Both the position numbers and the translations under genes were made by a program. From NCBI RefSeq assembly GCF_021233435.1, contig NZ_CP089468.1:1798001-1862000 (forward strand): 64,000 bases of DNA, written 5' to 3'. This stretch comes from Halobacterium noricense (GTDB lineage Archaea; Halobacteriota; Halobacteria; Halobacteriales; Halobacteriaceae). Shown here one piece after another: positions 22,912 through 46,885 of the stretch. Below the pieces are notes generated by a model that saw only the letters and a program-made list of their open reading frames with translations, had not been told where the DNA came from and did no database searches. The first letter of the stretch is position 1, and each line of letters starts with the position of its first letter.

Positions 22912-23459
22912 GCGTACGGCGACGGCGGGCCCCGGTATCAGGGTTCCGGCGACGGCGACTATGCATGTCAGTGGACGCTTCCCACGATACCAACTCGACT
23001 TCCTGAAAGCCCTCGCCGGTCTCGACCGTCGGGCGACTCGCAGCGCTCGTCTCCCGCGGTCTCGTTCGCTGCACTCACGACACTCCCGCGGCTCGCTGCG
23101 CTCCTCGCTCCGCTGCGGTGCTTACGTCGTCCTCAGAACGCTGCGCGTTCTGATGGGTGGTTCGAGAGGACGAAGTCCTCTCGTCATCCCGAGAGACGCG
23201 ACGCGTCTCTCGGTCGACTGCGGAGGACGCGATGCGTCTTCCGAACGCCGGGGTTCGTCGAGTGGGCGGTTGGCTTCGCCGACCGCCGCAAAACGTGGCG
23301 GCTTCGCCGCCACGCGCGTCTCGCCCTTTCAATCCGCCAGGACACAGAGTGAACCGTGGGGAGAGACCACAGTTTGTCGAGTTCGAATACCTCGTCGCTT
23401 CCCCGACCTGAACAGCCGGAGACGGTAGGATTTTGCAGCGGCCGCGACGAGTCGCGTGC
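22912..23459. other. 548-base intergenic stretch holding a hairpin array
   Basis: The stretch separates aroA from the divergently read peptidase gene. Bases 23030-23125 repeat short TCGCTGCGCTC-like motifs. Bases 23126-23314 are a row of near-perfect hairpins. Bases 23320-23440 show no hairpins and no convincing gene. The many short open frames across it show no protein-like signal. Confidence 0.7.
23126..23314. repeat. array of six hairpins including a paired-hairpin element (copy E1)
   Basis: Perfect or near-perfect inverted repeats lie at 23133-23153 (8 bp, TCAGAACG), 23163-23183 (9 bp, CGAGAGGAC, loop GAA), 23189-23213 (12 bp, CCGAGAGACGCG), 23221-23243 (10 bp, one G-T), 23265-23287 (10 bp, one G-T, loop TTC) and 23294-23314 (9 bp, CGTGGCGGC, loop TTC). 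Read on the minus strand, 23183-23126 is a 58-base unit: 21-base hairpin, spacer with CCCAT, 19-base hairpin, tail AGGACGAC. Its layout matches the insert in tnpB, and parts of it match the insert in the thioredoxin reductase gene. Confidence 0.85.
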
Positions 23460-24635
23460 ATGGACCCCGACTTTACGCGTCTCGACGAGTTCCTCGACGA
23501 ACAGGGACTCGACGGGTACGCCTTCCACGACGACGCGTCGAACAGCGACCTCTACTACGTCACGGGCTTCGACGCGCCGGACCCGTACTTGGCGGTCTAC
23601 ACGCCCGAGGAGACCGCCGTGCTCGTCTCCTCGCTGGAGTACGGTCGCGCGAAACAGGAGAGCCGCGCGGACACCGTCAAGCGCCACGCCGACTACGACT
23701 ACCGCGCGAAGCACGCCGAACACGGCGAGCGGGAAGCACAGGCGCTGATGGCCGCGGAGTTCCTCGCGGACGTCGGCTGCGAGTCGCTGGCCGTCCAGAA
23801 CGAGTTCCCGGTCGGCACCGCGGATGCGCTCCGCGGGCAGCAAATCGCTGTCGAACCCGACGAAGACGGCGTCGTCACGGACGTGCGCGCGACGAAGACC
23901 GACGCGGAAATCGAGCACGTGCGGGCTGCCCAGACGGCCAACGAGGCCGCGATGGCGCGCGCGGAGGAACTAATTCGTGGTGCAGACGTCACCGACGGCG
24001 GCGAACTCGTCCACGACGGCGACGTGCTCACCAGCGAGTTCGTCAAGCAGGAAATCGAAGTCGAACTCCTCCGACACGGCTGCGCCCTCGACGAGACCAT
24101 CGTCGCGTGCGGGCGGGACGCCGCCGACCCCCACAACCGCGGGAGCGGGCCGCTGGAAGCCGGCGAGTTCGTCGTCGTGGACATCTTCCCGCGGGACAAG
24201 GACTCGAAGTACCACGCCGACATGACGCGGACGTTCCTCAACGGCACTCCCAGCGGAACCCAACAGGAGTGGTACGACGTCACCCACGAGGCCATGCAGG
24301 CCGCGCTCGACGTCGTCGAACCCGGAGCGACTGGCGAGGAAGTCAACCAGGCGGTCGTCGACATCTACACCGACCACGACTTCCCCACGGTCTACACCGA
24401 CCCCGAAGCCGAGACTGGGTTCATCCACTCGACGGGCCACGGCGTCGGCCTCGACGTTCACGAGCAGCCGTCGCTCTCGCAGGGCGGCGAGGAACTCCGC
24501 CCCGGCCACGTCATCACTATCGAGCCCGGTCTCTACGACCCGGACGTCGGCGGCGTCCGCATCGAGGACATCGTCGTCGTCACCGAGGACAGCTACGAGA
24601 ATCTCACCGGCTACGAGATTTCGCTCGCGGACTGA
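23460..24635 (+). CDS. M24-family metallopeptidase (Xaa-Pro aminopeptidase/prolidase-like)
   Basis: A 391-residue pita-bread peptidase. The N-terminal creatinase-like domain (about 1-150) is followed by the catalytic domain, where all five metal ligands are visible: Asp in VVVDIFPRD, Asp in YHADMTRTF, His in HSTGHGVGLDVHE, Glu in ITIEPGLY and Glu in VRIEDIVVV. It should cleave the bond before proline in peptides in the cytoplasm. The start at 23460 has the conserved MDPDFTRLDEFLDEQGLDGY. It is downstream of the hairpin array and on the opposite strand from aroA. Confidence 0.9.
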   Translation: MDPDFTRLDEFLDEQGLDGYAFHDDASNSDLYYVTGFDAPDPYLAVYTPEETAVLVSSLEYGRAKQESRADTVKRHADYDYRAKHAEHGEREAQALMAAEFLADVGCESLAVQNEFPVGTADALRGQQIAVEPDEDGVVTDVRATKTDAEIEHVRAAQTANEAAMARAEELIRGADVTDGGELVHDGDVLTSEFVKQEIEVELLRHGCALDETIVACGRDAADPHNRGSGPLEAGEFVVVDIFPRDKDSKYHADMTRTFLNGTPSGTQQEWYDVTHEAMQAALDVVEPGATGEEVNQAVVDIYTDHDFPTVYTDPEAETGFIHSTGHGVGLDVHEQPSLSQGGEELRPGHVITIEPGLYDPDVGGVRIEDIVVVTEDSYENLTGYEISLAD

Positions 24636-43741: not shown

Positions 43742-44500
43742 TTACAGGCTGATCTGCTCCCCGTCTTCAGGCACGCGTACGTCTTCCGTCTCCGCCCGCA
43801 GTTCCTCACGCGACAGCAAGCAGTGGTTAATCGCCTCCATGTGGACGACGACGACGGTCGCATCGGTGGCCTCGCGGACAGCTGAGATGTCTTCGACGCC
43901 CATTGTGATGGGTTCGCCCTGCTCGAACTGTGCTTCGCCGCCGTTGAGGACGACCATGTCGGGCTCGAACTGGCCGAGGGTCTCTTCGACCGGTTCGTAC
44001 CAGATCGTGTCGCCAGCGACGTACACCGTCTCGTCGCCCTCGAAGACGAAGCCCGAGACCGGACCCATCCCCTCGGCTAACTCGCCATGTCCGTGTTGGC
44101 CCGGCGTTCGGTGGATGGTGACACCGTCGAAGGAGGTTTCGTCGTCAACAGGCCGGACGTCGGCAAAGCCTTCATCGGTAAACGCCTCGGCCTCCTCGGG
44201 TTGACAGAACAGTGGCACGTCGGCGTCGAGTTCCTCTCTGGCCGCCTCGTCCCAGTGATCGGGGTGGCGATGCGTGACGACCACGGCGTCGTACGATAAA
44301 CTCACGTCCGGTAATGGAACGAGCGGGTTCCGTTTCTGGTTCGCTGTCGTAAGGGACTCGGGAACGGCAGGGTTGTCCGTCACCGTCGGCATCTCGCCCT
44401 GCGGCGTGAACATCGGATCGACGAGGAGCGTCGTGTCGCCAACGTCCACGAGAATCGTGGCGTTGCGAATCAGCTGCACGTTGGCACCAGTTGTTGGCAT
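43742..44500 (-). CDS. metallo-beta-lactamase-fold hydrolase (UlaG-like)
   Basis: A 252-residue enzyme. The metal motif is VVVTHRHPDHWDEA (about residues 72-85), preceded by the family strand ATILVDVGDTTLLVDPMFTP; further ligands are in HGHGELAEGMGP, YVAGDTIWY and VVHMEAINHC. It resembles UlaG/lactonase-like and other zinc hydrolases; the substrate is unknown. The start at 44500 has an AT-rich promoter upstream (AAATAAATC). It was probably adjacent to the Bat-type regulator at 46118 until the IS element inserted between them. Confidence 0.87.
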   Translation of the reverse strand: MPTTGANVQLIRNATILVDVGDTTLLVDPMFTPQGEMPTVTDNPAVPESLTTANQKRNPLVPLPDVSLSYDAVVVTHRHPDHWDEAAREELDADVPLFCQPEEAEAFTDEGFADVRPVDDETSFDGVTIHRTPGQHGHGELAEGMGPVSGFVFEGDETVYVAGDTIWYEPVEETLGQFEPDMVVLNGGEAQFEQGEPITMGVEDISAVREATDATVVVVHMEAINHCLLSREELRAETEDVRVPEDGEQISL

Positions 44501-44716
44501 ACAAGTACCAGTATGAGGGCCATCGGGGTAGGATTTATTTCGACATATTCCAACCGATGTGGCGTTCAGCATTTTCGAGGTGGAGCCCCCGACTTCAAGG
44601 AGCGAACAAAGTGAGCGAGTAGGTCGGGGAGGAAACCGGCATGATACGACACAACCGACATACTGCGCCCGACCGACTCTCGGACATTTAAGAACCGTCG
44701 GCTTTTCATCTGAAAC

Positions 44717-46029
44717 ATGGAGGTTCGGCGTACCGCGCCGGTCAAACTCGTCGCTCCCGACGAGCGACGCAACGACCTCCACGAATCCGCTCGGCAGTTC
44801 CTTCACTGCGCTAACCGTGCCGCCGAGTTCTGTTGGTCCAACACCTCCTACACCGAGTGCATCACGGCCAATACCACCGCGCGGGACGCGCTCTACGACG
44901 ACCTCCGCGACGAAACCGACCTCACCGCGAACCTCGTTCAAGAAGCCATCCGACGCGCCGTCCAAGCCGTCAAAGGATGCGTCGAACGGTGGAAACAGGG
45001 CAAGCGAGTGAGTCAACCGGAGTTCACGTCTTGGAGTATGCTTTACGACAAGCGGAGCGCCACGTTCTACCGAAACAAAGTCTCGCTCTCGACCGTTAAC
45101 GGTCGCGTCGAGTGTGACTTTGAACTTCCCTCGGACAGCCCCACACCGTACGAACGGTACGTCCTCTCCGAAGAGTTTGAGTTCCGTGCGAGCACGCTCC
45201 AGTACGACGCAGTGGACGACGAGTTCTACTTCCACATCACCACGCGAAAGTACGACCCCGAAGGAGACGGTGATGACGCAGAGGTTTCGGAAGATACCGG
45301 GCACCAAACAGTCCTCGGTATCGACCTCGGCGTTCGCAAGAGCGAAGCTCTTGCGCAGCCCATCAGAAATCTTTGATTTCTGAGGACGTCAACAGTCTTG
45401 CCGCCTCTTCAACTGGCAGATTCTGGCAAGGAGACGACTACGACCACTGGTGTCGTGAGTTCGAGAAGCGACGTGGTGAAATGCAACAGCGCGGCACGCA
45501 AGCCGCGCACAACGCTCTGCTTCGACTCGGGAAACGCGAACAAGCGTGGCGCAAACAGTACAGCCACACCGTCGCTAACGAAGTCGTCACGGAGGCCCTC
45601 TCTTACGACTGCGACGTCATCGTGTTCGAGGACTTGACCGATATTCGAGAACGACTTCCCCACGCAAAGTGGCACCACGTGTGGGCGTTCCGACGCCTGT
45701 TCGAGTACGTTGAGTACAAGGCCCCCGAACAGGGGGTCTCCGTGGAACAAGTCGAGCCGAACCACACGTCCCAACGCTGTTCGCGGACGGACTGTGGGTT
45801 CACTCACGAGGAAAACCGCCACGGAGAACACTTTGAGTGCCAGAAGTGCGGCTACGAAGTGAACGCGGACTACAACAGCGCGAAGAACGTCGGTATGCGG
45901 TACGTTCGGAAACAGGGACACAAACTCCGTTCCTCGCCCACGTCGGGGAGCGGAGACGCAGAAGTAGACCTGTGTATAAATGGTGGGATGTTGAACGGCG
46001 ACGGGTACCAGCGTATTGCTGGTGCGTGA
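44717..46029 (+). pseudogene. tnpB: tnpB, interrupted by a 56-base hairpin insertion
   Basis: The protein begins MEVRRTAPVKLVAPDERRND. It reads through to TVLGIDLGV, the RuvC I motif with catalytic Asp, at 45334. A 56-base insertion shifts the frame, and the normal sequence resumes with NSLAASSTGRFWQGDDYDHW at 45391. Later motifs are intact: Glu in IVFEDLTDIRERLPHAKWHH, zinc pairs CSRTDC and CQKCG, Asp in NADYNSAKNVG. The insertion puts a TGA at 45374-45376 that overlaps a TTG at 45373-45375 in the second frame. Reinitiation could give two halves, but loss of function is likelier. Confidence 0.88.
45335..45390 (+). repeat. 56-base paired-hairpin insertion (copy E3) in tnpB
   Basis: A perfect 9-bp hairpin CGCAAGAGC/GCTCTTGCG (loop GAA) is followed by the spacer CAGCCCAT, a perfect 8-bp hairpin CAGAAATC/GATTTCTG (loop TTT) and the tail AGGACGTC. 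The spacer-stem edge CCCATCAGAA and the end TTCTGAGGACG are identical to the minus strand of the intergenic array at 23.1 kb, while the stem cores differ. Confidence 0.9.
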
Positions 46030-46117
46030 TTACCGGGAGTCCACATCAAAGCCCCTCCCTCAATAAACCGAGGCGCGGAGCGCCGAGGGAGTAGGGTGGG
46101 GTAGTTTACGCACTCGC

Positions 46118-46885
46118 TCACTGAATGAACTCGATATCCTCAGGATCAAGATCTACGTCGAGGTCGATGTCGAGTGAATCGGCGGCGAACTGCTGTGCCA
46201 GCCACGCCTCCGCTCGGTTGAGACGGTACTGGAACGTCGAACGCGACACGTCTACGTCGGCAGCAATCTCGGTGACCGACTGCTGCCGTGGCTCCTCGTA
46301 GTACCCGCGTTCGATTGCAGCCTCAAGTGCCGACTTCTGTTCGGGCGTGAGGGTTTGCTGGACGCGACTGTCTTCCAGCAAACATGGCGGCGTTCCGAGC
46401 CGTTCGACGGTCAGCGACAGCCCCTCACGAAGGTTCTCACGGACTTCCTCGTGGATCGCTGCTACAGGCCCGTCGATGAGTAAGCGCCACCGGAATTGGT
46501 CGCCACGACGCTCCGATCGCATTATCAGCCCCTCGCCGACGTGGTTCGCGGCGACAAGCGGGATCGACCGCGGGCCGTCGCCTTCCCGGCGAAGCGAGTG
46601 GATCTTCCGTGACTCCGGGTTTGACGAGAGGGTCGTGTACTCGTACTCGGTCACGGGCGCACCACACATTCCAGACGTATTCGGATCACTGGCGACGCGT
46701 TCTAGCTGGTCGTCGAACTCGGTGAGGACAGCAGCCGGGCCGACAACCTTGTCGATTCCCCACACTGCCTCGCTGGTCGCACTGATTTCCATCGACCGGG
46801 CGTACAAGTCTGCGTGTTCGATGAAGAGATCCATCACCTCGTCAGTCCCCTTCTCGTATTCGACCGTGAAGACGAACTCGCGCAC
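46118..46885 (-). CDS. Bat-type HTH transcriptional regulator
   Basis: A 255-residue protein from a GTG start (REFVFTVEYEKGTDEVMDLF). The N-terminal two thirds is the Bat-associated alpha/beta domain and the C-terminal part an HTH_10: LTPEQKSALEAAIERGYYEE, VTEIAADVDVSRSTFQYRLN and AEAWLAQQF. It may regulate the metallo-beta-lactamase-fold gene read in the same direction beyond the IS element. No ATG exists near the conserved beginning. Confidence 0.85.
   Translation of the reverse strand: MREFVFTVEYEKGTDEVMDLFIEHADLYARSMEISATSEAVWGIDKVVGPAAVLTEFDDQLERVASDPNTSGMCGAPVTEYEYTTLSSNPESRKIHSLRREGDGPRSIPLVAANHVGEGLIMRSERRGDQFRWRLLIDGPVAAIHEEVRENLREGLSLTVERLGTPPCLLEDSRVQQTLTPEQKSALEAAIERGYYEEPRQQSVTEIAADVDVSRSTFQYRLNRAEAWLAQQFAADSLDIDLDVDLDPEDIEFIQ

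Follow-up and report, generated by a model that had tools for sequence, protein, structure and literature searches.

A two-hairpin DNA element in a tnpB gene of Halobacterium noricense belongs to a class-wide family of the Halobacteria

The interrupted tnpB gene and its insert

The window analysed here is a stretch of 64,000 nucleotides of the Halobacterium noricense genome (contig NZ_CP089468.1, positions 1,798,001 to 1,862,000). Between 44717 and 46029 it contains a tnpB gene that reads as a single open frame of 418 amino acids once 56 nucleotides are omitted. With the 56 nucleotides kept, the first half comprises 219 amino acids and ends at a TGA (45374-45376) that overlaps a TTG at 45373 (Table 1). 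The insert consists largely of two perfect inverted repeats with 3-nt loops, and the single-stranded DNA fold of 45331-45390 reaches -17.4 kcal/mol compared to a shuffle mean of -7.09 (z -5.34), a value that none of 200 shuffles equals. The sequence-only reading had described a hairpin element that interrupts tnpB beside the RuvC I aspartate, a frame that is continuous without it, the overlap of TGA and TTG, and loss of TnpB as the likely result. All of these are borne out here. It had placed the insert at 45335-45390; the length of 56 nt stands, but from the intact relatives the insert is best placed about three bases further left, at 45332-45387.

Table 1. Features of the interrupted tnpB gene and of a second element copy in the window
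Feature	Position	Strand	Basis
Inserted two-hairpin element, 56 nt (G-TTC...GAGGAC)	45332..45387	+	Intact tnpBs and empty sites of other copies; placement ambiguous by 1-2 nt
Match to model R1	45328-45392		89.8 bits
Hairpin 1, perfect 9-bp stem, loop GAA	45335..45355	+	Inverted-repeat search, fold
Hairpin 2, perfect 9-bp stem, loop TTT; holds the TGA overlapping TTG	45363..45383	+	Inverted-repeat search, fold
Left target CGGC (consensus C-G-R-C), within the RuvC I motif, codons D-L-G	45328..45331	+	Flank counts of 86 de-duplicated copies; empty site in relatives
tnpB 5' part, 219 aa, ending at the TGA of the element	44717..45376	+	Open frame
tnpB 3' part, RuvC II/III side, Cas12f1-like TNB domain	45373..46029	+	Open frame; Pfam PF07282, E 1e-20
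Second copy, lower score (46.9 bits), intergenic, in a multi-hairpin stretch	23124..23189	-	Model R1

Most of the 28 intact relatives among the loci fetched read GACCTCGGCGTC before and AAC after the insert point. Relatives of the window tnpB are mostly whole, with open frames of typically 415-420 amino acids, and the idea that the insert is a normal feature common to all relatives does not agree with this. The window copy breaks the frame, and TnpB is therefore probably lost. There is no second break in the gene, and the omega of its second half, 0.153, is the highest of 31 but close to that of intact copies. Both observations fit a recent knock-out, from which we infer that the gene was inactivated recently; they are no proof of function. 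The second copy in the window lies in an intergenic stretch with several hairpins (22912-23460), part of a larger intergenic repeat of which the genome has several copies.

A family of two-hairpin elements in the Halobacteria

We built a covariance model, R1, from 18 copies of several genera. The window copy scores 89.8 bits with an E value of 1.5e-19 in its genome, being itself one of the 18 copies in the model. Because of this score and of near-identical 56-mers in other genomes, a chance origin of the window element is excluded. Rfam gives no match at E<=1 for 44500-46200. The genome of the window contains 64 R1 matches at E<=0.1, 14 of them with at least 57 bits, and 12 of the 13 genomes of the genus have matches at E<=0.01. 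Within the class Halobacteria matches are found in 338 of 391 genomes and 81 of 86 genera (E<=1e-6). A sample of the phylum returned 48 of 294 genomes, all 48 from the class, with five class genomes lacking a match; by sorting of the list, all 241 genomes from other classes lack a match. The 56-nt insert is thus a member of a class-wide mobile family and not peculiar to the IS of the window.

Copies are found both between and inside genes. An exact 23-nt match in 16 stretches represents the whole element in 10 and the bare palindrome alone in six. Named holders include Natrinema, Haloarcula, Halovivax, Halopenitus and Natronolimnohabitans, and 23 plasmid records, each bearing a haloarchaeal name, contain the element. 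Viral contigs gave no match to two exact patterns, and blastn gave none in phages. On a plasmid of Salinigranum marinum, the RefSeq-annotated TnpB WP_318571040.1 includes the inserted peptide, with about 19 extra residues. A PDB search with the consensus peptide returned no match.

The consensus is G-TTC-stem 1-loop-stem 1-(C)AGCCCA-stem 2-loop-stem 2-GGAC with a length of 51-61 nt. Each end of the element has a hairpin nearby, and two separate hairpins take the place of a terminal inverted repeat. The stems vary strongly, with 40 different stem-1 arms in 101 distinct rows. Pairing is of Watson-Crick type in 870 of 907 stem-1 cells, counted in a set picked by a structure model that favours paired copies; the other 37 cells include 12 G.T and 14 A.C, so that the preference for G-U pairs expected of a selected RNA is missing. 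RNAalifold predicts 23 pairs, of which 12 have double changes. In hairpin 2 the loop sequences form reverse-complement pairs (TTC 26 and GAA 16, TCC 13 and GGA 9, TCT 5 and AGA 5), which suggests that copying may pass through the hairpin. We infer that it is hairpin-templated copying or the needs of transposition, acting on the DNA, and not RNA selection that keeps the stems perfect in divergent copies.

A longer autonomous version of the element was considered and rejected since no lone right end was seen: all 44 right-end pattern matches in 13 genomes, compared by eye, lie within full model matches. A 55-nt subfamily is located inside longer conserved intergenic repeats of three other genomes (G045, G035 and G049; loci L294-L318 and L320-L328), where copies differ mainly in the 3-nt loops. 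A sister two-hairpin insert of the form TTCG-hairpin-TGATGCC-hairpin-TGAGCAC is present at the same place in different genomes (L024 5092-5148 and L087 1683-1738); its host is a tnpB-like family that also carries an antisense copy of the element.

Target sites, host reading frames and repeated use of sites

The flanks of the element were tabulated from 106 matches, of which the four weakest were left out, leaving 102, and 86 remained after removal of repeated flanks. On the left, C occupies position -5 in 65%, G position -4 in 87%, G or A position -3 in 98% and C position -2 in 91% of these copies; the right end is GGACG. A short repeat, CG or CGT, flanks each insert on both sides, and at most sites the 2-bp CG could be a duplication. 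Two loci are informative. At L114 the orthologues have an A after GGC, GGT or GGA, and the filled site keeps this A on the right only; L046 behaves alike. There is no target duplication at these two loci, while CG-flanked sites cannot tell a 2-bp duplication apart. From the junctions of L114 and L046, the best reading of the aligned sites is that an element ending in GGAC would insert after GRC without duplication.

In the genus, 50 copies with at least 50 bits were sorted by a home-made codon score into 20 coding, 15 non-coding and 15 mixed ones, the mixed copies being left out of the first test and including the frame-breaking copy of the window and two thioesterase copies. Multiples of three make up 18 of the 20 copies scored coding compared to 7 of the 15 scored non-coding (P 0.008), and coding copies tested against all remaining copies at three cut-offs give P values from 0.0007 to 0.019. 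Copies with a length that is a multiple of three are shown to sit in frame, and others, such as the 56 nt of the window, shift the frame of the host. Frame-broken hosts are, by our reading, the window tnpB and enoyl-CoA-hydratase-like, macrodomain-like and thioesterase-like genes.

All eight tested genes with an in-frame copy are filled in exactly one of the 13 congeneric species. Six of these genes are uninterrupted in all of the other 12 species and two in 11 of the 12, with no match listed for the twelfth species. Named hosts are a MinD-like ATPase, a GpgS-like protein, the NAD-dependent DNA ligase LigA, in which the HHH_2 match stops at the insert, a PhoU-like protein and an LplA-like protein. 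The other three of the eight have no match in NCBIfam; the host at L070 is presumably NAD-kinase-like. The PhoU-like protein has 362 amino acids compared to 342 in 12 orthologues that are 81-99% identical, and the whole difference in length is VQKTTESSSAADQNATPSVG; its AlphaFold model has a mean pLDDT of 47.2, too low for structural use. Genome G008 contains one tnpA-tnpB IS in three copies, two of which hold a 60-nt in-frame element in TnpB while the third is empty. Closely related species are thus shown to differ in the presence of the element at individual sites, where the unfilled site is clean.

In-frame copies would add a hydrophilic peptide of 17-20 amino acids to conserved proteins. 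Comparison with an orthologue, family or IS confirmed 17 in-frame hosts, all with the sense reading and with the insert at a codon boundary, in 15 of the 17 after a GAC or GGC codon. The family searches were made with sense readings alone, and the sense-and-phase odds of 0.314^17 are therefore not used as a P value. One in-frame copy of 54 nt lies inside an apparent intein of the DNA polymerase II large subunit (L123, G003), and one gene holds two in-frame copies 189 bp apart (L038, G000).

Some sites are filled more than once. The tnpB tree comprises 35 rows, obtained from 30 loci and 10 others after removal of two duplicates and three unusable or short rows. Copies filled at the site of the window, site A, are scattered among intact ones: the window copy is sister to the intact L171 (95/94), and L100 groups with two intact rows (96/98). 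For all seven filled rows, at sites A and B, the best tree needs five label changes, of which at least three are forced by well-supported branches. Given this scatter in the tree, the insertions at the window site look independent. Further tnpB sites are VLG-VD and, in antisense and by our reading, an N-terminal site in another tnpB-like family. In the thioesterase-like gene the same site is filled in G000 and G008 and empty in G011, which is nearest to G000 in a weakly resolved tree. Common sites could also stem from recombination or precise loss. To the right of the G000 thioesterase copy (L041), another insert, about 110 bp long and absent from G008, contains stops and the 8-bp direct repeat CGAGCAGC.

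We dropped the notion of tnpB as a preferred target. By our reading, 9 of the 28 best class loci (L076-L103) are in tnpB, a set biased by its selection for similarity to a copy carried in tnpB, and the genus gives only two independent cases among 50 copies.

Mechanism, alternatives and related elements

The best explanation as a whole, to which we give a probability of about 0.8, is that the insert is one copy of a mobile element of the Halobacteria that is short (51-61 nt), translatable and made of two adjacent DNA hairpins. Our best guess for the mover, held tentatively and at somewhat below even odds, is an IS200/IS605-type (HUH Y1) transposase acting in trans on an element that would move as single-stranded DNA. 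This guess is based on the two loci without target duplication, the resemblance of the target GRC to the right end GGAC and the hairpin at each end. The candidate that the element ends are those of an IS with a Y1 transposase was rejected, the IS ends of the genus being different sequences, and the Y1 transposase genes in its 13 genomes have no element-like flanking ends save for copies inserted in or near an IS. Element and transposase numbers are weakly correlated in these 13 related genomes (Spearman 0.58, P 0.04), and a Mann-Whitney comparison gives P 0.086.

A mobile element of the same kind with another mover, either a different transposase in trans or enzyme-free replication-template switching, comes close to an even chance. 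Six of the 13 congeneric genomes have no match to PF01797, and all six have at least one element match at E<=0.01; the reverse-complement loop pairs of hairpin 2 are a mark of hairpin-templated copying, and the SMR elements of Haloquadratum are likewise described without a known mover (PMC3119063). It is the pattern of end and target, which fits the IS200/IS605 rule, that speaks against such a mover. We further consider it possible, though on balance unlikely, that across an archaeal class the pair of hairpins, about 56 nt long, is sufficient on its own as a substrate for transposition. It would travel as single-stranded DNA to C-G-R-C, in haloarchaeal genes mostly the ends of Asp and Gly codons, and its sense reading would be a stop-free hydrophilic peptide. 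Such a transposon, shaped for read-through, would supply conserved proteins, DNA ligase among them, with short and probably disordered peptides and would repeatedly strike the active-site codons of TnpB.

Three readings in which the insert is tolerated or functional carry little weight. The sequence-only reading had also proposed a split TnpB, in which translation stops at the TGA and restarts at the overlapping TTG and the halves assemble into a working nuclease. Termination-reinitiation is described in archaea (PMC6728339), the window copy has the overlap with both halves otherwise intact, and constraint on the C-terminal half is about that of intact genes (omega 0.101-0.153 in four filled rows vs 0.089-0.147). 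However, the overlap is found in just three of eight tnpB inserts compared and comes from the hypervariable loop of hairpin 2, so that it is not a kept device; as the other five of the eight, at two sites, lack TTGA and run on in the wrong frame, stop-start coupling is unlikely. Filled tnpBs form no lineage, and it is the window copy that has the highest omega, by little. We regard a split nuclease as very improbable.

Translational bypass, in which ribosomes would hop the hairpins as in the byp elements of Magnusiomyces mitochondria and even copies of 55-58 nt would be harmless, is only marginally more credible. The short repeat on either side of each insert would suit it, as would three site-A tnpBs (window, L080 and L100) free of other breaks in either half and a thioesterase that holds a 58-nt copy in each of two species, between which 9 of its 82 codons differ synonymously and none non-synonymously. 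Yet copies in coding-scored genes are mostly multiples of three, which bypass would not need, the G000 thioesterase contains a further stop-bearing insert, and the two thioesterase insertions need not be a single old event. Least probable of all is an RNA element selected for its fold, such as the end of a TnpB guide RNA, a riboswitch or a terminator. The double changes found by RNAalifold speak for it, but Rfam has no match, imperfect pairs show no surplus of G.T over A.C, copies lie within the coding regions of genes that are unrelated to one another, and the IS elements looked at have ends of different sequence.

A mobile two-hairpin element thus remains the preferred reading, and elements of this kind are known. 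In-frame palindromic elements in proteins are described for Rickettsia, Wolbachia and Methanocaldococcus (PMC2229807, PMC2996958). Those of Rickettsia (RPE) and Wolbachia are short palindromic repeats located between genes and in frame in conserved genes, where they add a tolerated peptide to the host protein, and their mover is given as not known in these papers. The haloarchaeal family shares the dispersed palindromic repeat and the in-frame copies in unrelated conserved genes that are absent from orthologues. RPE proper differ in host, in their size of 105-146 bp and in their terminal inverted repeats, as they are described, from an element of 51-61 nt with two separate hairpins and a C-G-R-C target. 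The palindromic repetitive elements of Methanocaldococcus jannaschii (Suyama 2005, as cited in PMC2229807 and PMC2996958) are likewise archaeal palindromic repeats fused into protein genes; they belong to another lineage and are likened here by description, not by sequence or target.

The PATEs of Haloquadratum, IS605-derived remnants, have near-terminal palindromes, a short target oligonucleotide and no target duplication, and one of them is reported to have collapsed to 52 bp (PMC3119063). The two-hairpin element likewise has a hairpin near each end. The palindromes of PATEs are described as resembling identifiable IS605-type ends, whereas no sequence match to an IS end was seen for the two-hairpin element among the IS with tnpA in the 13 genomes. 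SMR-A elements of Haloquadratum are also small, lack target duplication, often lie inside IS605-type elements and are described without a known mover, but at about 110 bp they have terminal inverted repeats and insert in the near-terminal palindromes of PATEs and IS605-type elements (PMC3119063). REP sequences are hairpins that carry a short tag, GTAG or CGTC, at one of their ends; CGTC REPs include some RPE and are those listed without a known transposase, and the haloarchaeal element read on the other strand begins with CGTCC. REPs as described are single hairpins of 20-40 bp instead of two, and the description names no archaeal family (PMC3733652). From classical MITEs the element is set apart by the lack of a terminal inverted repeat and of a duplication at the two informative loci. 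Further related literature includes PMC10969869, PMC8211752 and PMC3403918. We recognised no description of the haloarchaeal two-hairpin family among open-licence PMC papers; while the kind of element is already known, this family is apparently undescribed.

For annotation, a peptide of the type RKTT..SSSAAHQN..SED within a haloarchaeal protein marks an insertion, and recent hits account for some of the broken tnpBs and enzymes. Target choice can be measured because exact sites, the RuvC I codons of tnpB among them, are used repeatedly. The family would extend the Rickettsia type of selfish DNA inside proteins to a large, culturable and genetically tractable archaeal group with Haloferax and Halobacterium, in which the movement of the element, its mover and the effect of its peptide are directly testable.
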